A DNA stretch of 64,000 bases, from assembly GCF_947503465.1 (NCBI RefSeq), contig NZ_CANNDN010000004.1, positions 62,001-126,000 on the forward strand, given 5' to 3'. Under the pieces are notes generated by a model that had not been told where the DNA came from, made no database searches, and saw nothing but the letters and a program-made list of their open reading frames with translations. Source of the stretch: an uncultured Tateyamaria sp. GTDB taxonomy: Bacteria; Pseudomonadota; Alphaproteobacteria; Rhodobacterales; Rhodobacteraceae. The translations under genes were made by a program, and so were the position numbers. Each line of letters begins with the position of its first letter. Position 1 is the first letter of the stretch. Positions 10,689 through 60,737 of this stretch are shown here, one piece after another.

Positions 10689-10726
10689 GATTTGCGCGCG
10701 CGCGGTACGTTAACCCGGCGCAGCCG

Positions 10727-10776
10727 GTGCTTCATCGGTGTACGGGTTGTGCACGGGTTGTGCACATATCGTGCAT
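10727..10776. repeat. Five GTGYAY-type hexamers at an exact 11-bp period (array 1)
   Basis: Hexamers GTGCTT, GTGTAC, GTGCAC, GTGCAC and GTGCAT begin at 10727, 10738, 10749, 10760 and 10771, each exactly 11 bp after the last. A GTTAACC motif lies at 10709-10715. The array sits between the lipoprotein gene (minus) and the GntR gene (plus). The same architecture recurs at 60688-60737. An 11-bp period puts each unit on nearly the same face of the helix, as expected for cooperative protein binding. Confidence 0.8.
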
Positions 10777-10847
10777 CGCGATTTTTGACCTTCATCTCTA
10801 TGAAAAGAAGGTGAATCCGCCCCGCGACTCGGCCTCCGCTTCAGCGA

Positions 10848-10876
10848 TTGCACGCCCGGCGTACTGGTCATATGAT
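10848..10876 (+). promoter_or_regulatory. Sigma-70-type promoter of the FadR-family regulator gene
   Basis: TTGCAC (10848-10853) and TATGAT (10871-10876) are separated by exactly 17 bp and lie 26 bp upstream of the ATG at 10902. Confidence 0.55.
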
Positions 10877-10883
10877 TTTACCA
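10865..10883. promoter_or_regulatory. Possible autoregulatory operator of the FadR-family regulator
   Basis: TGGTCATATGATTTTACCA begins with TGGT and ends with ACCA, the half sites typical of FadR/LldR/PdhR-type regulators, and contains TCATATGA. It covers the -10 element, which suits autorepression. The 11-bp spacing between half sites is longer than the usual family site, so this is tentative. Confidence 0.35.
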
Positions 10884-10901
10884 ATTTGCGCCGGAGATCT
10901 C

Positions 10902-11669
10902 ATGCCCTTTCGCCCCGTCCAACCCGATAAACTCTCAGCCGCCGTGATCCGGCAGATCGAGCAGCTTATCCTGCGCGGTATTCTGCGCCCCGGCGAACGG
11001 TTGCCGCCCGAGCGGGAGCTGTCAGAGCGCATGGGCGTGTCCCGCCCGTCCTTGCGGGACGCGATCGGCGCGTTGCAAGCCACCGGATTGCTGACGGCCA
11101 AGCCGGGCGCGGGGGTCTATGTGGCGGATGTGCTGGGATCGGCCTTTGCGCCCGCGTTGACCGAGCTTTTTGCGCGCCACGACGAGGCCGTGTTCGATTA
11201 CCTGAGCTTTCGGCGCGACATGGAGGGCCTTGCCGCCGAGCGGGCCGCGCGATTGGGGTCCGATACCGACCTGGCGGTGGTGCAGACGGTGTTCGAGAAG
11301 ATGGAGGCCGCCCATCCCAAGCGGAACGGAGAGGAAGAGGCACAGCTGGACGCGCAGTTCCACATGGCGATCATCGAGGCCAGCCACAATGTCATCATGC
11401 TGCACATGATGCGGTCGATGTATCAACTGCTGCGCGACGGGGTGTTTTACAACCGGCAGGTCATGTTCAAGCAGCGCACCACGCGGCAGGCGCTGCTGGA
11501 CCAGCACCGCCAGATCAATGAGGCGTTGCAGGCCCGGGACCCGGACGCTGCGCGGGCGGCGGTGCAGGCGCATCTGGATTATGTCGAACGCGCCTTGCGG
11601 GATCAGCAGAAGGCCGAGCATAACGAACAGATTGCGCGCCAGCGGCTGGATCACGAGACCGGCGCCTGA
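10902..11669 (+). CDS. GntR-family transcriptional regulator, FadR/PdhR/LldR subfamily
   Basis: A 255-residue repressor with an N-terminal winged helix (residues about 8-70: QIEQLILRGILRPGERLPPERELSERMGVSRPSLRDAI in sections) and a C-terminal FCD helical ligand domain with the His/Asp metal-site pattern (DAQFHMAIIEASHN ... HRQINEALQARDPDAARAAVQAHL). Such proteins sense small carboxylates. ATG 10902 has GGAG seven bases upstream. It stands alone: the upstream gene is divergent and the downstream atp operon convergent, so the regulated pathway cannot be read from context. Confidence 0.88.
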   Translation: MPFRPVQPDKLSAAVIRQIEQLILRGILRPGERLPPERELSERMGVSRPSLRDAIGALQATGLLTAKPGAGVYVADVLGSAFAPALTELFARHDEAVFDYLSFRRDMEGLAAERAARLGSDTDLAVVQTVFEKMEAAHPKRNGEEEAQLDAQFHMAIIEASHNVIMLHMMRSMYQLLRDGVFYNRQVMFKQRTTRQALLDQHRQINEALQARDPDAARAAVQAHLDYVERALRDQQKAEHNEQIARQRLDHETGA

Positions 11670-11680
11670 GGCTTATGTTC

Positions 11681-11741
11681 CGGGGGGCTCCGCCCCCGGC
11701 CTGCGGCCTCCCCCGTCGTATTTTTGGTCGGAAGAAACAAA
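11681..11741 (+). repeat. GC-rich hairpin followed by a shared 'CCGTCGTATTTTTGGTCGGAAGAA' type element
   Basis: After the GntR stop there is a GC-rich hairpin (CCGGGGGGC-TCC-GCCCCCGG, one bulge) and then, at 11714-11737, CCGTCGTATTTTTGGTCGGA followed by AGAA. Nearly the same 3' part occurs inverted at 41163-41186 (complement of TTCTGACCAGAAATACGACG), again next to a GC-rich hairpin. It probably acts as a terminator here. The recurrence suggests a dispersed repeat family in this genome. Confidence 0.55.
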
Positions 11742-11768
11742 AAAACCCCGGCGCAGACGGCCGGGGTT
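11738..11768 (-). terminator. Rho-independent terminator of the F0 ATP synthase operon
   Basis: A 9-bp stem (11744-11752 with 11760-11768, AACCCCGGC / GCCGGGGTT) and a seven-base loop are followed, on the minus strand, by a run of T residues. It lies 25 bp past the atpF stop. Confidence 0.8.
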
Positions 11769-11792
11769 CCTGCATCTCTGTTTCTGCGTGGC

Positions 11793-12368
11793 CTAGTGCA
11801 GGCGCGCGTCGACCTCGGCGATGGCGTCGTCGATCAGCTTGTTGCCGTCGGTGGCCGTCATCTGCTTGGCGATCACGTCGCGCGCGGCCTGCACGGCCAC
11901 GACGGCGGCGGTGTCGCGCACCTCTTTGACCGCGCCGGCTTCGGCCGAGGCAATCTGGTCCGTCGCGGCGGCCATGCGGCGTTCGATGGACGCCTTGAGG
12001 TCAGCACGCGCCTGATCTGCGGCGGCTTCGGCGTCCTTCTTGGCCTGTTCGACGATCTTGTCGGCCTGTGCCTGGACCTCTTTCTGCTTGCGCTCGTAAG
12101 AGGCAAGCAGCGTCTGGGCTTCTTCACGCAGGGCGCGCGCCTCGTTGATCTCGGACTGGATGCCGGTTGCCCGATCGTCCAGCATCTTCGAGATCATGCC
12201 GGGGACCTTGAAGTAGAACAGGACCGCGATGAACAGGATAAAGGCGACAAGGACGATGAAGTCCGTGTTGCTCAGTTTCCAGAATTCGGACGAGAACGGG
12301 TTTTTCGAGGCGGCCAGGGCCGGTCCTGCGGCCAACGTGGCGAGGGATGTGAGGGTCAGGAAACGCAT
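11793..12368 (-). CDS. atpF: F0 ATP synthase subunit b
   Basis: A 191-residue peripheral-stalk subunit. It has an N-terminal signal-like segment (MRFLTLTSLATLAAGPALAA), one membrane helix (residues about 37-54, FIVLVAFILFIAVLFYF) and a long charged coiled coil that holds F1. It is the last gene of the operon, with three bases between it and the b' stop. The two paralogous stalk genes b and b' are typical of Rhodobacteraceae. The F1 genes are not in this window, which is usual because F0 and F1 operons are separate in this group. Confidence 0.92.
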   Translation of the reverse strand: MRFLTLTSLATLAAGPALAASKNPFSSEFWKLSNTDFIVLVAFILFIAVLFYFKVPGMISKMLDDRATGIQSEINEARALREEAQTLLASYERKQKEVQAQADKIVEQAKKDAEAAADQARADLKASIERRMAAATDQIASAEAGAVKEVRDTAAVVAVQAARDVIAKQMTATDGNKLIDDAIAEVDARLH

Positions 12369-12371
12369 GAT

Positions 12372-48479: not shown

Positions 48480-48947
48480 TCAGATCAGCGCCAGACGCTC
48501 TTTCGGAACGTGCAAAAGCGCCATGGCTGCTGACGGATCGGCCCGCAGGTGCGCCCCCATTTCGTCATGCAAACGTGCAACCAAGGTGTCAGCGCGCACC
48601 TCTGTGCGCGTCACCTTGGCAAACCATGCCTCTTCACTGATCAGATCCTCGATCAGCGGGTCGATCACCGCGCCACCCCCACCGGGATAGCGGTAATACC
48701 CCCAGCCGTACCGTTTGCCCAATCGCCCTTCGGCCACCATGCGGGCCAGAACGGGGCTGACCTGATCCGCACGTCGCGCGGTCAGCACGGTGTCCAATCC
48801 GACAAGGTCCTGCGCCTCGAACGGGCCAAGGCCATAGCCCCAGGCCACAAGCGCCTCGTCCAGCTCCCACGGCGTCGAATGCAGATAAACCAACCGCTCG
48901 CACACACGCCAAAACAGGTCCTGCAACGGGGCAACCGCCAGCGTCAC
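48480..48947 (-). CDS. Stand-alone 3-hydroxyacyl-CoA dehydrogenase C-terminal domain
   Basis: A 155-residue protein with the helical dimerisation domain of 3-hydroxyacyl-CoA dehydrogenases (WGYGLGPFEAQDLVGLDT, EGRLGKRYGWGYYRYP) and no NAD-binding Rossmann domain. It could be a fragment, a partner of a separate NAD domain, or a protein with a new role. It is coupled to boxR (four-base overlap), placing it at the end of the box cluster. The C-terminal half (residues about 100-155) has no family I recognise. Confidence 0.65.
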   Translation of the reverse strand: MTLAVAPLQDLFWRVCERLVYLHSTPWELDEALVAWGYGLGPFEAQDLVGLDTVLTARRADQVSPVLARMVAEGRLGKRYGWGYYRYPGGGGAVIDPLIEDLISEEAWFAKVTRTEVRADTLVARLHDEMGAHLRADPSAAMALLHVPKERLALI

Positions 48948-49834
48948 GGCCCAAGGCCCTCGAGAAAGCGATGCTTGGCAATGATGGCCAGCAGGTCATT
49001 CAGCGAGGTGGACACAGGCTTGGCCGCGGTGTCGACCTGCGCCAGCGCCCGTTCATAGGACGGGGTGCGCTGGTCCAGCAGCGCCTTCAACTGCTCCATC
49101 GCGGCCGGATTGCCCTCCATCGGGCGCAGATCGCCCTGCGCGCGCACACGGGCCATGTGTTCACCGGGGCTGGTGCGCACCCAGACGGTGTGGAACCTTT
49201 CCAGCACGATGTCAAAGGCGGCGTCATCGCCCACGATACCCCCCGCCACCGCAAGAATCAGCTTGTCATGCTTGTCCACGATCCGCGCCACCGCCTCGGC
49301 CTCAAGCGCGCGGTATCCGTCGTGGCCATACAGTGCCATCACCTCGGACAACGGCATGCCCGCCTCGGCTTCGACCTCGTGGTTCAGTTCGATGAAGGGC
49401 ACTTTCAGCTTGTCCGCGGCCATCCGTCCCAATGTCGATTTGCCCGCGCCGCGCAAGCCCACCAGGCAAATGCGCTGCGCCCGCAGCGCCACCGGGTTCT
49501 GCGGCGCCAAGAGCGCCCGAACGCGCCCCTGCACCTGCGCAGGCGCGACCTGGTACAGACGGGCCACACGGGCCACGTCTCCGGCCATCGGGGGCGTTTC
49601 GGACAACAGGTCTTCGATGCGGACATTCAACGCGGCGGCAACACGGTCCAGCAGAATGACGGAAATGTTGCCCTCGCCCGCCTCCAACTGCGCGAGATAG
49701 CGGGGCGACACGCCTGAGCGTTCCGACAACTCACGCCGCGGCAAACCCAATGCTTCGCGGGCGGCGCGAACGCGGGTGGCAAGGCGTGCAATCATCGGGA
49801 TTGCGCCGTCAGGGATTGGTTTTGGTGATGTCAT
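48944..49834 (-). CDS. boxR: BoxR/BzdR-type regulator: XRE domain fused to shikimate-kinase-like domain
   Basis: A 296-residue regulator. Residues about 20-80 form an XRE helix-turn-helix (ALGLPRRELSERSGVSPRYL, AALNVRIEDLL); residues about 125-290 resemble shikimate kinase, with Walker A GLRGAGKSTLGR and the GGIVGDD loop. In known BzdR/BoxR proteins the kinase-like part binds benzoyl-CoA and relieves repression at promoters holding TGCA repeats. The start is uncertain (ATG 49834; TTG 49858 possible). A 59-bp gap follows the thioesterase gene, so it may have its own promoter. Confidence 0.92.
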   Translation of the reverse strand: MTSPKPIPDGAIPMIARLATRVRAAREALGLPRRELSERSGVSPRYLAQLEAGEGNISVILLDRVAAALNVRIEDLLSETPPMAGDVARVARLYQVAPAQVQGRVRALLAPQNPVALRAQRICLVGLRGAGKSTLGRMAADKLKVPFIELNHEVEAEAGMPLSEVMALYGHDGYRALEAEAVARIVDKHDKLILAVAGGIVGDDAAFDIVLERFHTVWVRTSPGEHMARVRAQGDLRPMEGNPAAMEQLKALLDQRTPSYERALAQVDTAAKPVSTSLNDLLAIIAKHRFLEGLGP

Positions 49835-49893
49835 GCGCACATTGTCTGGTATTATCAACTTGTTGTAGGGCGCATCACGCGCCGATCAACGGA

Positions 49894-50316
49894 TCAAATG
49901 TCGCAGATGTGGGCGGCCAGAAGGGCGCGCAACTCTGGCGGCGCAGGCTGGCTTTTGAACTGGTCCGCAATGATGAACACACAGGTGAACGTGCCTTCGA
50001 AACACAACACCCCGTCCTGGTGCCCATCGACCCGAAAGGTGACGGATGTGTCGCCCAGACGGGAGGGCCACACCGCGCAGATCAGCCGATGGCGGGGCGT
50101 AACGGGTGACCGGAAGTCCATGCTCATATGCACAAACGGCGTGCCGATATTGCGGTCCAGTTCCAGCTGATACCAGCCGTCACCGCCCAGATGCGCCTCC
50201 CACCAGGCGTTGATAGCATCCAGCGCAAACCACGGCAGGCGGGCGGTATAGGCGATGCGCGCCGGGTCGCAGTCGCCCCACGTCACCCGGATTTCATGTT
50301 TGAAACGGTCGCTCAA
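49894..50316 (-). CDS. Hotdog-fold acyl-CoA thioesterase (4-HBT type)
   Basis: A 140-residue protein of the 4-hydroxybenzoyl-CoA thioesterase family. The catalytic Asp is in VTWGDCDPARIAYTARLPWF. It starts at TTG 50316, overlapping the flavodoxin stop (TTGA). In box clusters thioesterases are thought to release CoA from dead-end benzoyl-CoA or epoxide products and so prevent CoA trapping; that role is inferred from literature and position. Confidence 0.85.
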   Translation of the reverse strand: MSDRFKHEIRVTWGDCDPARIAYTARLPWFALDAINAWWEAHLGGDGWYQLELDRNIGTPFVHMSMDFRSPVTPRHRLICAVWPSRLGDTSVTFRVDGHQDGVLCFEGTFTCVFIIADQFKSQPAPPELRALLAAHICDI

Positions 50317-50774
50317 GCGGCCTTGTCCGCCTGCATCAGACCCATGATCCCCTGCACCCACGGCAGTGCGATGTCCTCGGGCATGTCGAAACCGGACGCA
50401 TCATGAATGCCGCGCTCGCCCACTTGCGTGGCCCCCTGGGCCTTCATCATGTCGGCCAGCTTCATCGACCCATGGGCAAAGGTTTCGGCAAACACCATGT
50501 CGCCCAGACCGAAGATGGCAAACCGGATCCCGTTGAGGTCCGGCTTGCCCTCCGTCAGCGCCTCTTCGAACGGCAGCGCGGTCGAGGGCAAGTCGCCATT
50601 CCCGTAGGTCGACGTCACGATGATATAGAAGACGTCCTTCTCCATCGCGGCGGGGTCCACGTCCGCAAGGCTCTGGATATCGCAGTCGAACCCGTCGCCC
50701 AGTTCCGCCTCGATATCCTCGCACAGCATCTCGGAATTGCCGGTCTCGGACCCGTAGTAAATACCAACTTTCAT
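50313..50774 (-). CDS. Flavodoxin, MioC-like
   Basis: A 153-residue FMN-binding electron carrier. The phosphate loop is GIYYGSETGNSEML, with TSTYGNGDLP as the second FMN loop and FGLGDMVFAETFAHG following. ATG 50774 (or 50777) with GAGGAGT upstream. It lies between a Cys-rich small protein gene and the thioesterase gene, in the place where an electron donor to BoxB is needed. It is a plausible donor because no boxA is found nearby. Confidence 0.88.
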   Translation of the reverse strand: MKVGIYYGSETGNSEMLCEDIEAELGDGFDCDIQSLADVDPAAMEKDVFYIIVTSTYGNGDLPSTALPFEEALTEGKPDLNGIRFAIFGLGDMVFAETFAHGSMKLADMMKAQGATQVGERGIHDASGFDMPEDIALPWVQGIMGLMQADKAA

Positions 50775-50784
50775 CACATACTCC

Positions 50785-50958
50785 TCAATGCACGCGGGGG
50801 TCCGCGCCCGCCCTGTAACGGCGGCACATCTCGTCCTGTTCGTCCCGGTTCAGCATCATGTAGAGCGCAAGGCACATTCCGGTACATCCATCGCATTCCA
50901 GCGCGCAAAACGGGCGCTGGGGGGCGGTGTCGGTCAGGGCTGTTCTGTTGATCTGCAT
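50785..50958 (-). CDS. 57-residue cysteine-rich protein in the box operon
   Basis: ATG 50958 has a strong GGGAGG ribosome-binding site. The peptide contains C18-x3-C22-x2-C25-x3-C29 in FCALECDGCTGMCLALYMM, plus C44. Four closely spaced cysteines could bind a [4Fe-4S] or [2Fe-2S] cluster or zinc. It lies 11 bp after boxB and about 10 bp before the flavodoxin gene, so it is part of the operon. No known family is recognised. It may be an electron-transfer or assembly factor for BoxB, which is inference. Confidence 0.7.
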   Translation of the reverse strand: MQINRTALTDTAPQRPFCALECDGCTGMCLALYMMLNRDEQDEMCRRYRAGADPRVH

Positions 50959-50969
50959 GGGTGCCTCCC

Positions 50970-52418
50970 TCAGGCCATGTGCAGTTTCACATATTCGAAA
51001 TCGCCCGGCTTGTTGTCGATCCCGACCTTGGGCGGTGCGATCCAGCTGGCGTATTTGCCGGGCTCATAGCACGGCTTCATCAACGACTGGATAAACGCGC
51101 CATCTTCCTTGGTCGGCAACCACTCGGTCTGCCGCGCATCCCAATCCGACTGGCTGATAAACTCGCCCTCCGGCGTGATTGGCTGGTTCGCGAACACGCC
51201 GATCTTGCGGTGAAACCCCTCATGCGGCAGCTTCAGTTCAAAGTCGATACCGGTGCGCGAAATCTGCTTGTTCCAGCGGCGCAGACCGCCGGACGCATCG
51301 CGCACATAATCATCGCGCAAACGCATGTTGATGGCCGTCAGCGCAGGCACATCCTGCGTGACAATCTTGCCGTCCACGATGCTGGCGACGGCATAGGTGT
51401 CGTTCGTCAGCTTGTGGTCGTCATCAATCCGCTGCTCCATATACCGGCCCTTGATGCCGGCGTTGAACGCGTTGGCGGCATTGGTCGAAACCTCCTGCCC
51501 GAACAGGTCCAGTGACAGGGTATAGTGCAGGTTCAGCTTCTTCTGGATCGTCGGCAGGTCGATGACCCCCAGATCGCGGATCTTGCCGATGTCATAGGGA
51601 TCGTCGATCCCATGCTCCTGCATCGCGGCCAGCGTCGCCTGAATCGTGCGCGTCACGCCCGTTTCGCCCACGAACATGTGGTGCGCTTCCTCGGTCAGCA
51701 TGAAGCGGCAGGTGCGCGACAGCGGGTCAAAACCGGATTGCGCCAGCGATTCAAGCTGCATCTTGCCATCGCGGTCGGTGAAGTACGTGAACATGAAGAA
51801 GGACAGCCAATCCGGCGTCTCCTCGTTGAAGGCCCCCAGCATCCGCGGCGCATCCTCGTTCCCCGAGGACCGGACCAGCATGTCATCCGCTTCCTCGCGC
51901 CCGTCCTTGCCGAAGTATTTTTGAAGCAGATACACCATCGCCCACAGGTGCCGCCCTTCCTCGACATTCACCTGGAACAGGTTGCGCATGTCATAGAGGC
52001 TCGGTGCCGTCAGGCCCAGGAACCGCTGCTGCTCGACCGACCCCGGCTCCGTATCGCCCTGAATGACGATCAAGCGTTTCAGCATGTTGCGATACTCGCC
52101 CGGCACTTCCTGCCAGGCAGGTTCACCATAATGCTCGCCCATCGGAATGCGCCGGTCCTCCACGGCGGGGGCCAGCAGAACGCCCCAGCGATATTCCGGC
52201 ATCTTCACATAGTCGAACTTGGCCCAGCCCTTGGGGTCCACGCTGACGGCGGTGCGCAGATAGACCATGCTTTCCTGGAAATTCTGCGGGATCAGGTCAT
52301 TCCACCAGTTGATATAGCCGGGATGCCACTTCTCCAGCGCTTTCAGTACCTTGCGGTCCTGGCTCAGCCCCACATTGTTGGGGATTTGGGTGTCATAGCT
52401 GACGTTCATCACAGTCAT
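50970..52418 (-). CDS. boxB: Benzoyl-CoA 2,3-epoxidase oxygenase subunit BoxB
   Basis: A 482-residue diiron epoxidase of the aerobic benzoyl-CoA pathway. The carboxylate/His ligands fall in ...VNVEEGRHLWAM (Glu-x2-His) and MLTEEAHHMFVGE (Glu-x2-His), the ferritin-like diiron pattern. It needs two electrons per turnover from an external donor. ATG 52418 has GGAGGAGATG; the frame continues upstream through repeats but has no coding character. It follows boxC after 112 bp that hold two inverted REP-like palindromes. Confidence 0.95.
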   Translation of the reverse strand: MTVMNVSYDTQIPNNVGLSQDRKVLKALEKWHPGYINWWNDLIPQNFQESMVYLRTAVSVDPKGWAKFDYVKMPEYRWGVLLAPAVEDRRIPMGEHYGEPAWQEVPGEYRNMLKRLIVIQGDTEPGSVEQQRFLGLTAPSLYDMRNLFQVNVEEGRHLWAMVYLLQKYFGKDGREEADDMLVRSSGNEDAPRMLGAFNEETPDWLSFFMFTYFTDRDGKMQLESLAQSGFDPLSRTCRFMLTEEAHHMFVGETGVTRTIQATLAAMQEHGIDDPYDIGKIRDLGVIDLPTIQKKLNLHYTLSLDLFGQEVSTNAANAFNAGIKGRYMEQRIDDDHKLTNDTYAVASIVDGKIVTQDVPALTAINMRLRDDYVRDASGGLRRWNKQISRTGIDFELKLPHEGFHRKIGVFANQPITPEGEFISQSDWDARQTEWLPTKEDGAFIQSLMKPCYEPGKYASWIAPPKVGIDNKPGDFEYVKLHMA

Positions 52419-52439
52419 GTCTTCATCTCCTCCGTCGGT

Positions 52440-52462
52440 GGTGGGCACATTGCCCACCCTAC
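52440..52462. repeat. REP-like palindrome, copy 2 (inverted)
   Basis: GGTGGGCA-CAT-TGCCCACC followed by CTAC is the reverse complement form of the element at 27328. It sits in the boxC-boxB gap, facing copy 3 at 52498. Confidence 0.75.
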
Positions 52463-52497
52463 CCATTTTGCCGAGAACCGGCAGCGCCGGGACCTCG

Positions 52498-52520
52498 TAG
52501 GGTGGGCAATCTGCCCACCA
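52498..52520. repeat. REP-like palindrome, copy 3
   Basis: TAGGGTGGGCAATCTGCCCA followed by CC, identical over the core to copy 1 at 27328. Copies 2 and 3 face each other 40 bp apart, so the boxC-boxB transcript can form either two short hairpins or one long one. Confidence 0.75.
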
Positions 52521-52530
52521 ACCGCGCGGG

Positions 52531-54189
52531 TCAGACCCGCTCCATGTTGAAATCACCGCGCACACCGGTCCCGTACCGCTGCAACGCGCCATCTTGCCCA
52601 ACCGCATTGGGGCGGTTGAAAATCCAGTTCTGCCAGGCGGTCAGACGGCCAAAAATGCGCGTCTCCATCGTCTCCGGCCCGGCAAAGCGCAGATTCGCCT
52701 CCATCCCCGTCATCGCGTCCGGACTGAACGAAGCGCGCTCTTCCAGGAAGATGCGGATCTCATCCTCCCAGTCGATGTCATCGAGGATCATGGTCACCAA
52801 ACCGGTCTCATCCGCCTCTTCGGCCTCCAACGCCGCGCCAATGTGCCCGCGCAAACCATCCCCGTCGTCCGAGCCATAAAACCGCGTCTGCAACCGCGTC
52901 AGATCATTGCCCATCGGGTAGGCCCCGAAATTCCCCTCGCTCAGTGTGATGGTCGCAAGGGGCCGATTGTCGCCCTCGAATTCGTCTTCCATCATGTACG
53001 ACCGGTCGACCGCCCACAGCAGTTCGGCCAGCACCCCGGCAAAGCAGCTGCCATGCTCGACCAGCGCCACAAGCGAGCGCGAGGTCACATCGACCCGCTT
53101 CAACACCCGCTTCCAGTAGTGGCGGATCTCGTTGCACAGCCAGTGCTCCGGGTTGTCCAGAACCAACGCCTCGTGCGCCAGCACCGCCTGCGGGTCGCCT
53201 TGGCTTCGGATCACCCAAACGCCTGCCTCCATCTCGTTCAAACGCAGATGCAGCACCGCATCTTCCAGTTCCCGCGCCAGCCGCAGGATATAGGACTGAT
53301 CGCCCTGCGCCACCAACGCCTCGACATCCGCAGGGGCCTCTCCTTCGGGCCCCTTGATCAAAATCTCGGCCCGACGCGCATCCCGGTCCACGGTCACCTC
53401 GACCAGACCGTATGACACCGATCCATCCTCGGAAATCGTCCGCGCGATCGGCCCCAACGCAATGCCCTGCGCCACGTCCGGCTTGGGCGACGCCGCCGCA
53501 AACTCCGCCGCCCGCTCGGCCACAACCTCGTCAAAGCGGGCATTTGGCACCGCCTCGTCCACCAGCTTCCATTGCACGGCCCGCTTGCCCTTTACGCCCT
53601 CTTCGGTCGAACAGAACACATCGGCCCGGTCCCGCCGCACCATGCGCTTGTCGGTCACGCGGGTCAGACCCCCGGTGCCCGGCAACACCGCAAGCAAGGG
53701 CACCTCGGGCAGCGCCACGGACGACGTGCTGTCATCCGTCAGCATGATATGGTTGCACGCCAGCGCCAGTTCATACCCGCCCCCGGCGCACGCGCCCTTC
53801 ACGGCTGCGACATACTTCTGGCCGCTTTCGGCCTCCGCCGCCTCGTAACCGTTGCGCGTCTCGTTCGTGAACTTGCAGAAATTCACCTTGTGGGCATGCG
53901 CAGCCCCCCCAAGCATCCGAATGTTGGCCCCCGCACAGAACACCCGGTCCTTGGCCGATTTCATCACCACGACCTTCACCTCCGGGTGCTCGAACCGCAT
54001 CCGCTGGACCACGTCGTTCAACTCGATGTCGACGCCCAGGTCATAGGAGTTGAGCTTCAGCTGATAGCCATCGAACAGCCCGCCATCCTCATCCACATCC
54101 ATCCAAAGCGTGGCCACAGGCCCGTCATAGTCCACCCGCCAATGGCGATAGCGGCTGGGATCGGTGCGAAAGTCGATGATCTTGGTCAT
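52531..54189 (-). CDS. boxC: 2,3-epoxybenzoyl-CoA dihydrolase BoxC
   Basis: A 552-residue ring-cleaving enzyme with two crotonase-like modules. The first (residues about 20-230) has VVVMKSAKDRVFCAGANIRML and AAVKGACAGGGYELALACNHI; the second (residues about 280-520) includes LVALVEHGSCFAGVLAELLWAVDRSY. It hydrolyses the epoxide to 3,4-dehydroadipyl-CoA semialdehyde plus formate. It is preceded by 99 bp of control region with GTGCA motifs. Confidence 0.95.
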   Translation of the reverse strand: MTKIIDFRTDPSRYRHWRVDYDGPVATLWMDVDEDGGLFDGYQLKLNSYDLGVDIELNDVVQRMRFEHPEVKVVVMKSAKDRVFCAGANIRMLGGAAHAHKVNFCKFTNETRNGYEAAEAESGQKYVAAVKGACAGGGYELALACNHIMLTDDSTSSVALPEVPLLAVLPGTGGLTRVTDKRMVRRDRADVFCSTEEGVKGKRAVQWKLVDEAVPNARFDEVVAERAAEFAAASPKPDVAQGIALGPIARTISEDGSVSYGLVEVTVDRDARRAEILIKGPEGEAPADVEALVAQGDQSYILRLARELEDAVLHLRLNEMEAGVWVIRSQGDPQAVLAHEALVLDNPEHWLCNEIRHYWKRVLKRVDVTSRSLVALVEHGSCFAGVLAELLWAVDRSYMMEDEFEGDNRPLATITLSEGNFGAYPMGNDLTRLQTRFYGSDDGDGLRGHIGAALEAEEADETGLVTMILDDIDWEDEIRIFLEERASFSPDAMTGMEANLRFAGPETMETRIFGRLTAWQNWIFNRPNAVGQDGALQRYGTGVRGDFNMERV

Positions 54190-54217
54190 GAATCAGGTAA
54201 GCCTTTCAGGGGCTGAA

Positions 54218-54232
54218 GTAGCATTATGCTAC
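54218..54232. promoter_or_regulatory. Palindrome upstream of boxC
   Basis: GTAGCAT-T-ATGCTAC is a perfect 7-1-7 palindrome 29 bp upstream of the boxC start. It may be an operator overlapping the transcription start, or an mRNA hairpin. Confidence 0.5.
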
Positions 54233-54250
54233 ATCACAAGTAGGGAAAAA

Positions 54251-54286
54251 TGCACATAAGGCCCAAAAATATCGTGTTTTTGTGCA
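54251..54286. promoter_or_regulatory. Inverted GTGCA/TGCAC pair upstream of boxC, candidate BoxR operator
   Basis: TGCACA at 54251-54256 and TGTGCA at 54281-54286 face each other across 24 AT-rich bases, each flanked by A- or T-runs. BzdR/BoxR repressors are known to bind TGCA repeats, and this is the promoter region of boxC-boxB. The bound protein is inferred. Confidence 0.5.
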
Positions 54287-54288
54287 CT

Positions 54289-55098
54289 TTAATGCGCTTC
54301 TGACGGCGCATCTTCCAATGCCATCAGCGTGGCGCAGAACCCGGCAACGGCCGGCGTGACAATCTCCGGCGCATCCCTGTGCGGCGCATGCCCGGTCCCA
54401 TCGACAATTAGCGCCTCGACCGGGGCATAGGCACGGCCCTCCACCTCGCGCACCTGCGCCAACGTGCCATAGGGATCTTCGGACCCCTGCACGACCAGCG
54501 ACGGAATGCGCCAGTGATCAATGGCATCCCCCACATTCCAGTCGGCAAAGCCCGGATCGGTCCATGCGTCACGCCAGCCGTAAAACGCCACATCCGGGTG
54601 ATCGTGATGCCGCGCCAAGCGGTCCTTCAGATCACCGCTCTCATAGGCCGATTTCGCCGCCCGAATGGCCGCCAGCCCCTCCGGCTCGGTAAAGAAATGC
54701 GGCGCGATCAGGATGAGGCCCCGGACGCGCATGTCCGACACCGACCCGGCATAGATGGCGGCAATCGTCGCCCCGTCCGAATGGCCCAGCAGCACAGCCG
54801 ACGTCACGCCCGCCGCGTCCAGTAGCGGGCCCAGCACATCCTCCGCCTCGCGCGTCATGTAATCCAACGGGCGCGGCAACTGTACAGATGACGACCGACC
54901 ATACCCCGCACGGGAATAGGCCAGCACACCCATGCCCGTGGCCTCCGCCAACGCCTCCGGCCAATCGCGCCACAGGCCCACGGACCCAAGGCCCTCATGC
55001 AGCATCACAAGCGTCGGCGCGTCCCCGGGCGCAGGCCCCCAGCACGCGTAGTCCAGATCATGCCCCGCAACCGAAACCGTGCCCGCACGCCACTCCAT
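54289..55098 (-). CDS. Alpha/beta hydrolase of the box cluster
   Basis: A 269-residue hydrolase. The nucleophile is in VLLGHSDGATIAAIY, the acid probably in VVQGSEDPYGT and the His in DGTGHAPHRD. The oxyanion region is LHEGLGSVGLW. Similar genes accompany boxABC in several bacteria, possibly opening lactones or hydrolysing CoA esters; the reaction is not established to my knowledge. ATG 55098 overlaps the ligase stop by one base (TGATG). Confidence 0.87.
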   Translation of the reverse strand: MEWRAGTVSVAGHDLDYACWGPAPGDAPTLVMLHEGLGSVGLWRDWPEALAEATGMGVLAYSRAGYGRSSSVQLPRPLDYMTREAEDVLGPLLDAAGVTSAVLLGHSDGATIAAIYAGSVSDMRVRGLILIAPHFFTEPEGLAAIRAAKSAYESGDLKDRLARHHDHPDVAFYGWRDAWTDPGFADWNVGDAIDHWRIPSLVVQGSEDPYGTLAQVREVEGRAYAPVEALIVDGTGHAPHRDAPEIVTPAVAGFCATLMALEDAPSEAH

Positions 55099-56624
55099 CA
55101 CGCACCCTCCCGCAGCTTGAAGCGTTGGATCTTGCCCGTCGCCGTCTTGGGCAGGCTGTCCACACACTCGACCCAGCGCGGGTACTTCCACTTGCCCACA
55201 CGGTCCTTCACATGGGTCTTCAGCATCTCCTCCAACCCCTCGGGTCGGTCGCCATGGGGCACGACAAAGGCCTTGGGTTTTTCCAACCCATCCTCGTCCC
55301 GCGCGGCGACAACAGCACATTCCAACACGGACGCATGGGACGAAATCGCCTGCTCCACCTCGAACGGGCTGACCCAGATGCCGGACACCTTGAACATGTC
55401 GTCCGTCCGCCCGCAGTAGACAAACCGCCCATCCGCGCGGCGCTCGTACTTGTCACCGGTTCGCGTCCATACGCCTTCGAACGTCTCGCGCGTCTTGTCC
55501 CGCCGGTTCCAATACCCGCCAGCAGCGGACGCGCCATTGACCAGCAGCTCACCCACCTCGCCCACGCCGACATCTGCGCCATGTTCGTCGACCAGCCGCA
55601 CCTCGTATCCGGGCACCGGCACGCCCGACGTGCCATAGACCACGGCGCCCGGCGCATTCGACAGAAAGATATGCAGCATCTCGGTCGACCCGACACCGTC
55701 CAGGATCGGCACACCGGTCAGCTTCTCCCACCGCGTGCCCACGTCCTCGGGCAATGCCTCGCCTGCCGAAATACAGGTCCGCAAGGGCGCTTCAGGCGCG
55801 CCATGCGCTTCCATATGCGCCACCATCGCGGCATAAAGCGTGGGCACCCCGCAGAACACGGTCGGCTGCGCATCGGCAATCACCTGCACCATGCCGTCCG
55901 GCGTGGGCCGGCCCCCAAAGATCACCACGGTCGCGCCAACGGACATCGGAAACGTCATCGAATTGCCAAGCCCATAGGCGAAAAAGAACTTGGCCGCGGA
56001 AAACACCACGTCGTGTTCGCGCACCTGCAACACCTGCGCGCCATAGGTGTCCGCCGTCGCCTTCAGCGCGGAATGGATGTGATACACCCCCTTCGGCTGT
56101 CCGGTCGAGCCCGAAGAGTAGAGCCAGAATGCCGTCTCATCATCCGTGGCATCAAGGGTGTCAATCGGTGCCTCCGCCCGCGCCATGAACGCGTCATAGG
56201 TCTGTGCCCCGTCGCGCGCGCCGCCGATCACCACAACACGGCGCAGGTACGGATTGCCCTTCAGCGCCGGGGCCACCACGTCCCACAGCGCCTCTGACAC
56301 GACCAGCATCGTGGCGCGGCTGTCCCGCAGGATCGCATCATAGACCGGCGTCGCCAGCAACGTATTCAGTGGCACCGGAATCACCCCGGCCTTCAGCGCG
56401 CCCCAGAACAGCACCGGAAACTCGATCTGGTCCAGCACCAGCATCGCCACCCGCTCTTCGGGCCGGATGTCAGACGCCAGGAACGCGGCACCGGCGCGGC
56501 CCGACGCCTCGGCCAGCGTGCCGTAGGTCAGGCTGCGCCCCGTGCCGACCTCGCGAAAGGCAACCTTGTCGCTGCGGCCCTCGGCCACGTGACGGTCCAC
56601 AAAGTAAGATGCTGCGTTTGCCAC
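55098..56624 (-). CDS. bclA: Benzoate-CoA ligase
   Basis: A 508-residue AMP-forming aryl-CoA synthetase that activates benzoate to benzoyl-CoA. The P-loop-like motif is WLYSSGSTGQPKGVYH, then AKFFFAYGLGNSMTFP, which is typical of benzoate ligases; the adenylate motif is YGTSGVPVPGYEVR with DGVGSTEML, and the catalytic lysine is in KTATGKIQRFKLRE. GGGAGGGG precedes the ATG. It is the first box gene after an 85-bp gap from the amidohydrolase gene. Confidence 0.94.
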   Translation of the reverse strand: MANAASYFVDRHVAEGRSDKVAFREVGTGRSLTYGTLAEASGRAGAAFLASDIRPEERVAMLVLDQIEFPVLFWGALKAGVIPVPLNTLLATPVYDAILRDSRATMLVVSEALWDVVAPALKGNPYLRRVVVIGGARDGAQTYDAFMARAEAPIDTLDATDDETAFWLYSSGSTGQPKGVYHIHSALKATADTYGAQVLQVREHDVVFSAAKFFFAYGLGNSMTFPMSVGATVVIFGGRPTPDGMVQVIADAQPTVFCGVPTLYAAMVAHMEAHGAPEAPLRTCISAGEALPEDVGTRWEKLTGVPILDGVGSTEMLHIFLSNAPGAVVYGTSGVPVPGYEVRLVDEHGADVGVGEVGELLVNGASAAGGYWNRRDKTRETFEGVWTRTGDKYERRADGRFVYCGRTDDMFKVSGIWVSPFEVEQAISSHASVLECAVVAARDEDGLEKPKAFVVPHGDRPEGLEEMLKTHVKDRVGKWKYPRWVECVDSLPKTATGKIQRFKLREGA

Positions 56625-56649
56625 GTGTCCCCTCCCAAAGACTCATGAA

Positions 56650-56667
56650 GATGCTTTATCGTGCATC
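56650..56667. promoter_or_regulatory. Inverted repeat upstream of the benzoate-CoA ligase gene
   Basis: GATGC-N8-GCATC lies 26 bp upstream of the ligase start and includes GTGCAT, the hexamer also seen in the 11-bp arrays and near boxC. It may be an operator for BoxR. Confidence 0.4.
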
Positions 56668-56709
56668 CTGCGTCAGGCTGTCGCAATGTCCAGGCCGCGA
56701 TCACGCACT

Positions 56710-57582
56710 TTACTGCAACCCCAACACCCGCGCCGCGTTGTCTTTCAGAATGCCGGGGCGCACTTCGTCCTTGATGTCGATGCCTTCGAAATCCGCCAAC
56801 CACCGCTCGGGTGCGATCATCGGCCAATCCGACCCGAACAGCATCTTCTTGCGCAGGATAGAATTGCAATACCGCACCAGGATCGGCGGGAAATACTTGG
56901 GCGACCAGCCACTCAGATCGATATAGACGTTCGGCTTGTGCTGCGCGACGGCCAGCGCTTCCTCCTGCCACGGGAAACTGGGATGGGCCAGGATGATCTT
57001 CAGATCGGGAAAATCCACCGCCACGTCATCCATATACATCGGGTTCGAATACTTCAGGCGCATCCCGTTGCCGCCACGCATCCCCGACCCGACACCAGTC
57101 TGCCCGGTATGAAACAGCGCAATGCCGCCCTCATCCTCGATCGCGCGATACAGGTCATAGGCCATGCGGTCATTGGCATAAAACCCCTGCATGGTCGGAT
57201 GAAACTTGAACCCCTTGATGCCAAACTCGCGCATCAGCCGCCTGGCCTCGCGCACGCCCATCTTGCCCTTCCACGGGTCAATGGACGCAAACGGGATCAG
57301 GATGTCACTGTTCTCGGCGGCAATCTCCGCGACTTCCTCGTTGGCATAGCGGCGATAGCCGGTCTCCCGCTCCGCATCGACGGGAAAGATCACGGCGGCA
57401 ATGTTCTGCGCCCGGTAATGCGCCGCCGTCTCGGGCACCGTCGGCGGGTGTGTCCAGGGGGCGCGAAAATACGCTGCCATGGTGGATTGCAGGTCGTCAT
57501 AGCCGTCATCCGGGTGACACCCGCAGGGCTCCTCGGCATGGGTGTGGATGTCGATGGCGCGGATCTTTTCAAGGTCAATCAC
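56710..57582 (-). CDS. Amidohydrolase-2-family hydrolase, phenylpropenoid beta-ketoacyl-CoA type candidate
   Basis: A 290-residue TIM-barrel hydrolase of the ACMSD/amidohydrolase-2 group. Metal-site motifs are IDIHTHAEE, GFKFHPTMQGF, IILAHPSFPWQEEA and MLFGSDWPMIAPE. Amidohydrolases beside feruloyl-CoA ligases are known to hydrolyse the beta-ketoacyl-CoA made when a phenylpropenoid side chain is shortened (CouO-type), so this role is likely from context. Coupled to the ligase gene (four-base overlap). Confidence 0.82.
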   Translation of the reverse strand: MIDLEKIRAIDIHTHAEEPCGCHPDDGYDDLQSTMAAYFRAPWTHPPTVPETAAHYRAQNIAAVIFPVDAERETGYRRYANEEVAEIAAENSDILIPFASIDPWKGKMGVREARRLMREFGIKGFKFHPTMQGFYANDRMAYDLYRAIEDEGGIALFHTGQTGVGSGMRGGNGMRLKYSNPMYMDDVAVDFPDLKIILAHPSFPWQEEALAVAQHKPNVYIDLSGWSPKYFPPILVRYCNSILRKKMLFGSDWPMIAPERWLADFEGIDIKDEVRPGILKDNAARVLGLQ

Positions 57583-59351
57583 AGGGCAATACTCGCGGGA
57601 TCAGTGTTGTCATAAAGCCGGTCCACCAGATGGGCCCGGCGCTCCAGCAGCCTGGCAAAGTTGATGTTGCCCTTGGCGGTCACTTCGCCCGCGCCCATAT
57701 CCGGCGGGTCGGCCAGAACGAGGGCACGCACAACCCTTCGGGCCGTGCCGGTGATGCCGTCGGAATACGTTTCCATACGCTTGCGTATTTCATCGGATGC
57801 TGCGCAGCATAGCGCGGCCTCATCCACCACACCGTCCTGCGCGTCCGGCCCCGGAACAATCAGTATGCCGACCTCATCCCGCCCCGCGCCGCAGACAACA
57901 ACATCCTGTGCCAGGGGGCCAAGCACGGCCAGCATATCCAGACGCAGTTGCGCCGCCTGAACCCAGGTTCCCGTGCTCAGCTTAAAGTCCTCGGACAGCC
58001 GCCCGTCAAAGCGCAACCCCTTGTTCATATCCGCCGGGTCCACGAAACGCATCGCATCTCCGGTGACAAAAAAGCCCTCGATATCAAACGCTTCTGCCGT
58101 CTTTTCCGACGCTTCGTGGTAACGCGAAAAGACATTGTCGCCCTTCACCCGCACATCCATGCGCCCCGTCCCGTCATCGACAAGTTTCACAGACACGCCG
58201 GTCATCGGGACACCGACAATCCCGGCACCCTTGGCCGGAACATGTTGCAACAGGGCGGCGGGGGCGGTCTCGGTCAGCCCCCAGCTTGACGTGATCAGCG
58301 GCATGCGTCCCGCCGTCTCAAGCGCCATACGCTCAAGTACGCTCCACGTCTCCTGCGGCAGCGACGCACCTGCATAAAAGATCATGTCGAGGTCGCGGAA
58401 ATACGTCTCGCGCAAGCGTGCGTCGCGTTCCATCGCCGCCACCAATTGCGCAAACCCAATCGGCACGTTGAACGAGATCGTGCCCGACACCAGCCCCAGA
58501 TTCTCGACCGTCCGCCCGAATTTCGCCGGGATCGGCGCACCGTCATCAATGTACAGCGCCCCCCCGTTGGCCAGCACCAGATTGAAGTTATGCGATCCGC
58601 CAAAAACATGGTTCCACGGCAGCCAATCCACCAGCACCGGGGGGCGCGCAGCGACAAAGGGCAGGCCATCGCGGATTTGCGCCTGATTGGTCGTCATCAT
58701 CCCGTGGGTTGTCACAACCGCCTTGGGATCAGAGGTCGACCCGGAGGTCAGCAACAGCTTTGCCACCGTTTCGGGGCCGACAGCCGCATGGGCGGCATTC
58801 ACATCCGCCGACCCGTTCAAACCGGCCAACGCCTCACCGCGCCCGGACACCACGCGCGACACCAGTTTCGGGCAGTCAAACAGGTCCAAAGCCGGCCCAA
58901 ACGCGTCATCATCCGCCGCATAGACCAGCGCGGGTTTCACCAGATCACGCACATATTCCAGCCGTCCATGCGCCGCCGCGATCAGGCTGTACTGCGCGGC
59001 CACGGGCACCGTCACCAGCCCTACATACTGCGCCGCCAACGTCAGCAGTGCATGATCCACCGCATTGCCCGACAGGATCAGGATCGGCCCCGACACACCC
59101 CGCGCCAATAGCCCGGCGGCCAGCACGCGCACACGCTCCAATGCGTTTGCATACGATACTGTATGCCACCCGTCCTCGGATCGCTCCGCCAGAAACACAG
59201 CGTCGGGCGTTTGTGCCGCCCATCGGTCCAACCACACGCCCGTCGACCGATCCACCGCCGACAGCTCATGGCCCGATCGCAGCACAATCGACCCGTCCGG
59301 ACGGTCCTCGCGCACCACCTTGTGCGGCAACAATCCCAGATGATCGGTCAT
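57579..59351 (-). CDS. fcs: Feruloyl-/hydroxycinnamoyl-CoA synthetase-like ligase
   Basis: A 590-residue AMP-forming ligase of the Fcs family, longer than benzoate ligases. The motifs are LLLTSGSTSDPKAVVTTHGMM, WLPWNHVFGGSHNFNLVLANGG and SSWGLTETAPAALL. It activates ferulate, coumarate or related phenylpropenoic acids with CoA. The C-terminal catalytic Lys lies in EVTAKGNINFARLLERR. Between MarR and the amidohydrolase genes with four-base overlaps on each side. Confidence 0.88.
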   Translation of the reverse strand: MTDHLGLLPHKVVREDRPDGSIVLRSGHELSAVDRSTGVWLDRWAAQTPDAVFLAERSEDGWHTVSYANALERVRVLAAGLLARGVSGPILILSGNAVDHALLTLAAQYVGLVTVPVAAQYSLIAAAHGRLEYVRDLVKPALVYAADDDAFGPALDLFDCPKLVSRVVSGRGEALAGLNGSADVNAAHAAVGPETVAKLLLTSGSTSDPKAVVTTHGMMTTNQAQIRDGLPFVAARPPVLVDWLPWNHVFGGSHNFNLVLANGGALYIDDGAPIPAKFGRTVENLGLVSGTISFNVPIGFAQLVAAMERDARLRETYFRDLDMIFYAGASLPQETWSVLERMALETAGRMPLITSSWGLTETAPAALLQHVPAKGAGIVGVPMTGVSVKLVDDGTGRMDVRVKGDNVFSRYHEASEKTAEAFDIEGFFVTGDAMRFVDPADMNKGLRFDGRLSEDFKLSTGTWVQAAQLRLDMLAVLGPLAQDVVVCGAGRDEVGILIVPGPDAQDGVVDEAALCCAASDEIRKRMETYSDGITGTARRVVRALVLADPPDMGAGEVTAKGNINFARLLERRAHLVDRLYDNTDPASIAL

Positions 59352-59809
59352 CCCCGCCCCTCGATCCGCGCCAGCGCCTTTTTCACCGCCGCAATTTCCA
59401 CCGCGCGCAATCCGTCCAGCATGCGCCGATCATGGGCGCGCACCGCCGCCACGGCCTTGTCATATACCCGCCGCCCCGCAATCGTGCATTGCAGCGCATA
59501 GGCGCGACGGTCGTCAGCGCAGGGCGCGCGGGTGACCCAACCCGCCTCCTCCAACCGGTCCACATAAACCACCACATTCGCCCGCTCGACGGACAGGGCC
59601 CCCGCCAACTGGCTGGGTCGCAGGCCGGGATTCTCGACAATCATCGACAGCGCGGAAAAGGTCAGCATGCGCAGGCCAAACGGCTCCAACGTGCGCGCCA
59701 GATCGGCCTGAAGGACGTTGAACGCGCGCTTCATGTTGTACCCCACGAACTGGCGCAGGGCGGCATCGGTAACATCCGACTCCGTATGTTGCTCTACCTT
59801 CCGCATCAT
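59348..59809 (-). CDS. MarR-family regulator, CouR/FerR-like
   Basis: A 153-residue winged-helix repressor (MLTFSALSMIVENPGLRPSQ, ERANVVVYVDRLEEAGWVTR, CADDRRAYALQCT). MarR proteins in this position (CouR, FerC/FerR) bind hydroxycinnamoyl-CoA thioesters, which release them from the operator. A 19-bp palindrome directly upstream of the operon's first gene is the expected site. Coupled to crotonase and ligase genes. Confidence 0.9.
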   Translation of the reverse strand: MMRKVEQHTESDVTDAALRQFVGYNMKRAFNVLQADLARTLEPFGLRMLTFSALSMIVENPGLRPSQLAGALSVERANVVVYVDRLEEAGWVTRAPCADDRRAYALQCTIAGRRVYDKAVAAVRAHDRRMLDGLRAVEIAAVKKALARIEGRG

Positions 59810-60567
59810 CGAAACCTCGGCGCGCGCTTTTCAAGGAAGGCCGCCAACCCCTCCACCGCATCGGGCGAGGTCTGGGCCAGCGCGGCCGCCATGCTTTCGA
59901 CAAACAGCCCATCCTGCCGGGACATATCGGCAATCCGCGCGATCCCCTGGATCATCATGTAATTGGACAGCGGCGCGTTCCCGGCGATCTGCGCCGCAAT
60001 CTCCATCGCCCGCGGCAGCGCCTCTCCGGTGCCAACGGCATAATGCGCCAACCCCAGGGCCACGGCCTCCTCGGCGCCATATTTGCGCCCCGTCAGCATC
60101 ATCTCGGTCATCCGGTCCGGCCCCAGAATGCGCCCCACACGCACCGTCGCGCCACCGCCGACAAAGATGCCGCGCCGCCCCTCGGGCAATTGGAAAATAC
60201 AGTCCGGTTCCGCAATCCGCACATGGGTCGAGGTCGCCAGTTCCAATCCGCCCCCGATCACCGCGCCCGTCATCGCCGACACGACAGGCAGGCCCGATCC
60301 CTGCACCCGGTCCATGACCGCGTGCCAGCCACGCGAGTGATGCAACGTGCCTTCGGCATCCCGGGCCACGTGTTCCGACAGGTCCAGACCGGCACAATAA
60401 TGCCCACCCGCACCGGTGATGACGGCCACGCGCACGCCGTCGGGCGGGGCACGGAAAAACGCGTCAATCTCGGCCAGCAGCCCGTCCGACATCGCATTGC
60501 GCTTGTTGGCCCGGTTCAGGGTCAGCACCGCAATCTTGTCCTGCACATCAACCAAAAGATCGGGCAT
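59806..60567 (-). CDS. Enoyl-CoA hydratase/isomerase (crotonase) family protein
   Basis: A 253-residue crotonase. The CoA oxyanion loop is VAVITGAGGHYCAGLDLSEH and the second GAVIGGGLELATSTHVRIA, with acid residues in the LPEGRRGIFVGGG region. It probably hydrates or cleaves a phenylpropenoyl-CoA; the sequence does not show enough to name it a hydroxycinnamoyl-CoA hydratase-lyase. ATG 60567 has GAGG five bases upstream; a GTG at 60573 is also in frame. First gene of the operon. Confidence 0.88.
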   Translation of the reverse strand: MPDLLVDVQDKIAVLTLNRANKRNAMSDGLLAEIDAFFRAPPDGVRVAVITGAGGHYCAGLDLSEHVARDAEGTLHHSRGWHAVMDRVQGSGLPVVSAMTGAVIGGGLELATSTHVRIAEPDCIFQLPEGRRGIFVGGGATVRVGRILGPDRMTEMMLTGRKYGAEEAVALGLAHYAVGTGEALPRAMEIAAQIAGNAPLSNYMMIQGIARIADMSRQDGLFVESMAAALAQTSPDAVEGLAAFLEKRAPRFR

Positions 60568-60578
60568 GCGCACCTCGT

Positions 60579-60597
60579 TAGTTATGGATCATAACTA
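60579..60597. promoter_or_regulatory. Perfect 19-bp palindrome: MarR operator of the phenylpropenoid operon
   Basis: TAGTTATG-GAT-CATAACTA lies 12 bp upstream of the crotonase start, a perfect 8-3-8 inverted repeat of the size and AT-rich form that MarR proteins bind. Binding here would block transcription initiation. The best candidate is the MarR protein of the same operon. Confidence 0.75.
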
Positions 60598-60687
60598 TCC
60601 AAGCACAGGACGGCCGATTCCAGCAAGTCCCGCCATTGACCCAGCATTAAGGTTAATACGCCGCCCGCACCGTTAACCGGAAGTCGC

Positions 60688-60737
60688 GTGCACCATCGGT
60701 GTACGCACGGTGCACAGTCTGTGCATAGGTTGTGCAT
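60688..60737. repeat. Five GTGYAY-type hexamers at an exact 11-bp period (array 2)
   Basis: Hexamers GTGCAC, GTGTAC, GTGCAC, GTGCAT and GTGCAT begin at 60688, 60699, 60710, 60721 and 60732, every 11 bp. GTTAACC lies at 60672-60678, 16 bp before the first unit. Unit 2 with its spacer (CATCGGTGTAC) is identical to unit 2 of the array at 10727. It lies upstream of the crotonase-to-amidohydrolase operon and after dctM. Confidence 0.8.

Follow-up and report, generated by a model that had tools for sequence, protein, structure and literature searches.

What is a hexamer repeated at an exact 11-bp period doing at two separate intergenic places on one bacterial contig? The question is raised by the window analysed here, 64,000 nucleotides from an uncultured Tateyamaria sp. 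of the Rhodobacteraceae, which carries two five-unit arrays of GTGYAY-type units. Our results show that such arrays are found genome-wide between genes, whichever way these run, mostly keep their positions between congeners, are specific in dialect to the genome that carries them and are oriented with the local strand asymmetry; they look like oriented chromosome signposts and not like switches for particular genes. We favor a model, to which we give a probability of roughly 0.6, in which the arrays are dispersed, polar binding sites for a putative protein with a role in chromosome organisation, replication or segregation and not at promoters. The first-pass annotation of the window, which had described the two arrays as a matching pair, was correct in this observation but too narrow, since they are 2 of 32 in the genome and the replication-linked orientation was missed.

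A genome-wide family of arrays

The two arrays and the boxes beside them lie as follows.

10727..10776, plus strand: array 1, five GTGYAY-type units at an 11-bp period, intergenic between divergent genes; units start at 10727 (GTGCTT, a variant), 10738 (GTGTAC), 10749 (GTGCAC), 10760 (GTGCAC) and 10771 (GTGCAT)
10709..10715, plus strand: GTTAACC box, 18 bp ahead of unit 1 of array 1
10777..10790, plus strand: right flank of array 1, CGCGATTTTTGACC; a T-rich, GTTTT-like box recurs thereabouts in many arrays
60688..60737, plus strand: array 2, five GTGYAY units at an 11-bp period, intergenic between tandem minus-strand genes; units start at 60688 (GTGCAC), 60699 (GTGTAC), 60710 (GTGCAC), 60721 (GTGCAT) and 60732 (GTGCAT)
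60672..60678, plus strand: GTTAACC box, 16 bp ahead of unit 1 of array 2
60763..60769, plus strand: GTTAACC box, 25 bp to the right of array 2

Every unit start given in the first-pass annotation was re-found, as were the GTTAACC boxes that it placed 18 and 16 bp before unit 1. Unit 2 is indeed identical in the two arrays together with a spacer, but this is spacer 1, which precedes it (CATCGGTGTACG), and not the one that follows; the distance to the gene on the left, put at 78-121 bp, is 78 bp for array 1 and about 115 bp for array 2. The claim that the arrays lie far beyond chance is borne out alike by simulations, shuffles and a reversed-pattern control. In 17 of 150 windows simulated with a first-order Markov model and scanned on both strands, the longest run of GTGYAY at 11-bp steps had two units, and in none did it have three; the real window has runs of 5 and of 4, the latter extended by a near-unit. 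A looser array pattern matched the window 9 times, the mean over 100 shuffles being 0.56.

When the genome of the window (G000; 4.11 Mb, 10 contigs) was scanned for three perfect GTGYAY-N5 units, 79 overlapping matches were obtained, and none for the reversed pattern. These collapse into 32 arrays on contigs C1-C4, no match being among those listed for this pattern on the smaller contigs C5-C10. The density is about one array per 110 kb, within a range of one per 65-120 kb over the genomes compared; in the congener G296 all 82 listed matches lie on its 3.86-Mb contig. The unit in the window's genome is GTGYAC with a loosely specified spacer (about RGGYT), and an array contains three to five perfect units with an occasional extra degenerate one, such as GTGACC. 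A GTTAA/TTAAC box stands 16-18, 26-29 or 36-38 bp upstream of the first unit in 18 of the 32 arrays, distances that are in 11-bp phase with the units, and one starts 24-26 or 35-36 bp past the last unit in 12 of them; other arrays have GATGCACC...GCG at the left and GTTTTC at the right. GTTAACC boxes are not specific to arrays and are also found near a second element family described below. Boxes resembling CACCGYACGCNCCGTTAACC, likewise in 11-bp phase, accompany about half of the arrays of this genome and also occur near the second family; these boxes could form a dispersed signal in their own right.

Arrays keep further apart than random placement would have them. Gaps shorter than 15 kb numbered 0 against 3.7 expected in G296, 0 against 3.3 in G000 and 4 against 10.6 in G232, a test in which the length of contig C4 of G232 is a guess (200 kb) and, as in the parS-contig test of G232 below, array positions were entered by hand from the match listing.

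Old positions and local dialects

Related species keep the arrays at orthologous loci, a point that the first-pass annotation had raised: for 25 of the 32 arrays of the window's genome, G296 has an array in the orthologous intergenic region. Across these 25 pairs the units are identical at 567 of 606 bases (94%), the spacers at 230 of 380 (61%) and the 60-bp flanks at 2210 of 3000 (74%). That the hexamer is kept while the spacers turn over points to recognition of the unit and not to recent copying; judged by these alignments, the arrays are selected on the hexamer. Array 1 has a syntenic array in G296 (W1, locus L231) with 22 of 24 unit bases identical, and array 2 has no syntenic partner among the 32 arrays of G296.

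Positions are shared across genera as well. Five of the ten fetched arrays of G073 match an array of G200 by at least one flanking protein, mostly by one. Directly past the gltD stop codon, a clear array was present in 13 of 29 readable genomes from nine genera; a further 2 gave degraded arrays, 8 a different repeat, 5 nothing and 1 an unclear case. The unit itself varies by genome: GTGCAT in G232, G063 and G084, GTGTAC in G249, G256 and G284, and GTGCAC/GTGTAC in G000. The gltD-slot array of G232 is built of GTGCAT, like its remaining arrays. Shared positions across genera, together with a unit that varies by genome, argue for one trans-acting reader per genome; as far as sequence comparison can carry it, a local dialect at old positions implies such a reader and is our strongest argument for one.

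The main rival reading is that the arrays are selfish intergenic repeats, akin to repetitive extragenic palindromic (REP) elements or miniature inverted-repeat transposable elements (MITEs), whose strand-biased insertion, and not any function, would account for the orientation. The arrays are intergenic, polar and present in tens of copies, and some non-orthologous ones share 50-200 bp at 70-90% similarity, GTTAAC boxes included. In congeners the gltD slot holds a different element family, as an insertion hot spot would, and Chitinophaga ginsengisegetis has 19 loci with longer look-alikes in which the spacer order is equal from copy to copy. However, positions are conserved between congeners and in some cases across genera, the contrast between hexamer and spacer identity is not that of recent copies, and the degraded arrays in the gltD slot, which belong to the array-poor species G240 and G309, look like decay in place. 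We consider the repeat reading unlikely, while giving it real weight.

The dialects bear equally on the idea that the arrays act as RNA or single-stranded DNA hairpins, whose palindromic units would pair when transcribed or when the template strand is exposed. GTGCAC is self-complementary, and DNA folds of both window arrays gave z = -1.7 to -2.7. But the GTGCAT and GTGTAC dialects are not palindromic, complementarity between spacers is no greater than with shuffled partners, and no Rfam family matched at the arrays of 10 fetched loci, in which the only hit was a flavin mononucleotide (FMN) riboswitch (L051:3944-4088) about 1.4 kb from an array. The spacers do not co-vary, on which ground the hairpin was rejected; we give it the smallest chance of all the readings considered.

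How widely do the arrays occur? In a genus sample 15 of 20 genomes had a match; by these counts G000, G296, G297, G298, G299, G301, G308 and G310 are array-rich and G300, G302, G303, G304, G306, G307, G309 and G311 array-poor. In a family sample of 295 genomes, at least one perfect three-unit match was found in 33 and three or more in 26; the reversed control gave a single match in each of four genomes. A class sample of 385 genomes held nothing comparable outside the family: five matched, including the window's own, and the other four had perfect or near-perfect tandem repeats or one match. Among the sampled Alphaproteobacteria, the arrays thus occur in only some Rhodobacteraceae. A five-unit scan of named genomes returned at least 120 stretches, many with only one or two spacer types, as in tandem repeats. 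Among the matches listed, varied spacers at several places occurred in two groups, the Rhodobacterales (Tateyamaria, Yoonia, Planktomarina, Palleronia, Jannaschia, Paracoccus and others) and Chitinophaga ginsengisegetis of the Bacteroidota, which has at least 19 stretches of longer, dispersed GTGTAT or GTGCAT arrays at the 11-bp period with spacers that vary inside an array and recur in order between loci. These look-alikes mean that the arrays are not unique to Rhodobacteraceae, and they may be a further instance of this system, a convergent case or a repeat family. One array query matched eight Leisingera plasmids, at a single place each; a plasmid search with array 2 as query found no match. 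In the three plasmids viewed the array lies beside nqr or urate genes, with no partition gene. Viral contigs gave 47 stretches with the four-unit pattern, and those viewed were mostly tandem or coding repeats. No description of such arrays was found in the open-access literature.

The different repeat of the congeners is a second dispersed intergenic element, made of CRCGCAGTTT-N11-TGTGCAGTTT pairs with a 21-bp period, in many cases with two such pairs spaced by about 74 bp, and it occupies the gltD slot where other species carry GTGYAY arrays. It ran opposite to the local GC skew at 7 of 7 G297 loci examined and at 10 of 12 in G295 and G297 together, and was inconsistent in G302 and G303. It may be a functional counterpart of the arrays or a sign that these slots are insertion hot spots. 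The loci of these outlying groups are given here.

L403, L407, L392, L399, L411, L415, L418: second element in G297
L344-L348, L352, L353: second element in the gltD slot
L094, L096, L101, L105, L114, L117, L132, L135, L137, L143, L163, L166, L173, L177, L178, L180, L190, L199, L200: Chitinophaga arrays
L297, L298, L299: Leisingera plasmids of 109-251 kb, each with one array of 3-4 units between annotated genes

Orientation toward the origin and indifference to genes

In five genomes, array direction was opposite to the sign of the local GC skew for 97 of 103 arrays: 30/32 in G000, 31/32 in G296, 9/9 in G200, 8/10 in G073 and 19/20 in G232. The sample covers 20 of about 57 arrays in G232, 10 of about 11 in G073 and, in G200, 10 fetched loci less L304, a mismatched array. 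The bias persists when orientation is set by the unit count per strand alone (82/85, 85 of the 103 arrays having more units on one strand than on the other) and when one locus is kept per orthologous position (62/68). Named Rhodobacterales loci from another collection gave 13/14, with several skews near zero and with two palindromic loci and one short locus left out, and Chitinophaga ginsengisegetis gave 14/19. Agreement with net coding direction was near chance (16/32, 19/32, 5/9, 6/10 and 9/20), and local skew and coding direction were uncorrelated (r=-0.06), so that the replication strand is most probably what the skew reflects. On the array strand the spacers are rich in G but their surroundings rich in C; drift in base composition would therefore not yield the polarity.

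The origin was located by parS, at C1:2.464-2.466 Mb in G000, 3.304-3.306 Mb in G296 and 0.217 Mb in G200. The G-rich strand mostly reads toward parS, with 24 of 32 arrays pointing that way in G296 (P=0.007) and 8 of 9 in G200 (P=0.04). An E. coli-type dif pattern was found in none of the five genomes, and the terminus was accordingly taken as the point opposite parS. Distances from the origin, which run from 31 to 1859 kb in G296, fit a uniform distribution (Kolmogorov-Smirnov P=0.76 for the 32 arrays of G296, P=0.18 for the 9 of G200).

This even spread bears on two readings that share the replication-linked polarity. The arrays could be polar replication barriers of the Tus/Ter or RTP kind distributed over the chromosome, each bound array blocking forks or another translocase from one side. 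Polarity by replication strand, a multi-unit complex, low copy number and presence on both replichores would suit such barriers, and the uniform distribution from origin to terminus seen in G296, with no concentration opposite the origin, makes them improbable. Alternatively, the arrays could be guidance sequences, either FtsK-orienting polar sequences (KOPS) or other architecture imparting sequences (AIMS), which likewise combine strand bias relative to replication with lineage-specific sequence (PMC5993296). We judge this very unlikely: there are 30-60 arrays of 28-50 bp with no rise toward the terminus in G296, as opposed to octamers with a gradient, and one array per 65-120 kb seems sparse for KOPS.

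The arrays' relation to genes was assessed with a custom codon-score open reading frame (ORF) caller and not with standard annotation. By these gene calls all 32 arrays of the window's genome are intergenic, with convergent neighbours in 7 cases, divergent in 7 and tandem in 18; of the tandem cases, the array runs with the genes in 10 and against them in 8. Over the five genomes, 99 of the 103 arrays entered the comparison of gene arrangement, and three (one in G296, two in G232) lay inside called ORFs. Convergent, divergent and tandem places numbered 25, 21 and 53, compared with 8, 22 and 49 for 79 control gaps of 90-600 bp from the same loci; if anything, arrays favor convergent places (P=0.03). 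The 64 proteins flanking the arrays of the window's genome matched 99 Pfam families, none of them in more than two proteins.

These counts speak to a large transcription regulon, in which the arrays would be operators of one regulator (CarH/LitR-like, BoxR or another) and the neighbouring genes its targets. An operator of CarH/CarA consists of 3-5 tandem 11-bp repeats that contain TnnACA (PMC9304148), and many arrays stand 30-150 bp from a gene start. Convergent places, however, are not avoided, array orientation is independent of gene direction and flanking genes show no functional theme. We rejected the promoter regulon on the gene-orientation statistics and the missing theme, and leave it only a slim chance. 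The link that the first-pass annotation drew to the neighbouring operons likewise finds no support, given random flanking-gene orientation and 7 convergent cases, nor does it at array 2 itself. Tateyamaria sp. syn59 (L097) has a five-unit array at the orthologous place; its right side aligns with window 60629-63990 at 85%, and its left side resumes at window 56645 downward at 84%, so that the phenylpropenoid genes are missing from that place while the array persists. The alignment also suggests an origin of the window in Tateyamaria or a near relative. The genes concerned, and one near array 1, are these.

48944-60573, minus strand: BoxR-like regulator gene (HTH_3 and shikimate-kinase domains), clustered with putative boxB/boxC-type, benzoate-CoA-ligase-like and phenylpropenoid genes
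6661-10149: SMC-type chromosome protein gene (Pfam SMC_N), two genes to the left of array 1

Several observations weigh against the model of oriented binding sites. In G073 the skew test reached only 8/10 (P=0.11), and in G232 orientation on the parS contig alone was not significant (P=0.33). Eight of the 32 arrays of G296 point away from parS, and six of these sit in locally reversed skew, raising the possibility that polarity is inherited with the segment and not enforced. Regularity of spacing, measured by the coefficient of variation, gave P=0.006 in G296, 0.05 in G232 and 0.07 in G000. Most of the sampled family members have no arrays, and the single arrays on Leisingera plasmids mean that the elements are not confined to main chromosomes.

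Orientation that follows replication and not transcription nevertheless argues for a role along the chromosome rather than as a promoter operator, and we continue to favor oriented sites for a dedicated protein. One helical turn per unit, with cooperative binding as its natural reading, was already proposed in the first-pass annotation and is supported: at 11 bp per unit over 3-5 units, the units fall on one face of the DNA, and a directional complex needs head-to-tail contacts. We envision a scenario in which copies of one putative sequence-specific protein sit next to each other on the units along that face, one protomer per helical turn, head-to-tail, and so form a directed complex. The arrays of a genome would change dialect jointly as they track this fast-evolving reader. 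With less certainty, we suppose that the complex would act on or with a mover or organiser of the chromosome, be it the replisome, SMC loop extrusion, a translocase or the ordering of sister chromosomes. Put at its boldest, the proposal is a chromosome compass: a fast-evolving head-to-tail protein on 30-60 spread intergenic arrays would give origin-to-terminus direction to the machinery of replication, loop extrusion or segregation, its recognition code drifting between species and the arrays following. We advance this version tentatively, at slightly less than even odds; if it is true, the Chitinophaga look-alikes would be an independent or more ancient case.

Most oriented chromosome sequences described to date are short oligomers found by statistics, with few identified readers. 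The arrays number in the tens, are large, individually conserved and polar, and could be deleted or inverted singly in a marine bacterium that can be cultured; with them, the encoding of direction in a bacterial chromosome beyond origin and terminus becomes open to direct test. Their genome-specific dialects offer a natural experiment in how a DNA-binding protein and its sites evolve together, and congeners with and without arrays may expose the putative reader by gene content alone.

Candidate readers and known systems

Two known regulators were considered as readers, and both are unlikely. BoxR/BzdR, the binding candidate of the first-pass annotation, has a distribution across genomes that does not follow the arrays: at a threshold of E <= 1e-30, 11 of the 18 array-rich genomes searched lack a homologue, and one is found in 6 of 6 congeners that are free or nearly free of arrays. 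MraZ boxes are direct repeats beginning with GTG. mraZ is present in 20 of 20 genomes, yet no array lies beside it, and the 20 mraZ loci (2.1-3.2 kb, both strands) held no two adjacent GTGYAY units.

Among chromosome-organising sites, parS (TGTTTCACGTGAAACA, near the origin) lies at places separate from the arrays, which are chromosome-wide. The sites of matS, SlmA, Noc and RacA systems number tens per chromosome and serve a dedicated protein; they are directionless palindromes, restricted to or excluded from a domain. The arrays would resemble them as tens of conserved sites for one putative dedicated protein, and differ in being strand-asymmetric and polar, running from origin to terminus. 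Tus-Ter and RTP-Ter are polar single sites in the terminus half, oriented by replichore. The arrays share this polarity, but they are multi-unit and lie along the whole chromosome. AIMS are clade-specific octamers that become more abundant and more strand-biased toward the terminus (PMC5993296). With AIMS and KOPS the arrays have in common a replication-related strand bias and clade specificity; unlike them, they are tens of sites of 28-50 bp without a gradient, where octamers are present in large numbers with one.

The closest parallels are in DNA contacts. Known members of the MerR, CarH, BldC and Xis types bind 9-11-bp direct repeats head-to-tail, and BldC, Xis and RdfS form directional winged-helix oligomers on direct repeats of variable number (PMC5859096, PMC11963761). 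A directional oligomer on variable-number repeats is what we propose here, and the most likely architecture of the putative reader would be a winged helix of one of these types. BldC differs in its AT-rich repeats with 9-bp sites and in regulating promoters. To our knowledge, no chromosome-wide oriented sites belong to BldC, Xis or RdfS filaments.

CarH, CarA and LitR (MerR-type) likewise have operators of 3-5 direct repeats in tandem, each exactly 11 bp long and all on one face of the DNA, the CarH/CarA operator repeat being nnnnTnnACAn in about 3-5 copies bound by head-to-tail protomers (PMC9304148). The TGYACA of the window's genus would fit this consensus at an equal period; in 199 non-final units of G000 and G296 the base following the hexamer was A in 99, G in 92 and C in 8. 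The GTGCAT dialect of G232 does not fit the consensus, which counts against a reader of this kind. CarH operators lie at promoters of carotenoid operons (PMC9304148), whereas the arrays occupy 32 intergenic sites, many off promoters and oriented by replication, with 7 of 32 between convergent genes and gene direction random. By this analogy, the arrays would hold a head-to-tail complex of the CarH/BldC type in its DNA contacts, set apart from a CarH operator by their position and distribution.

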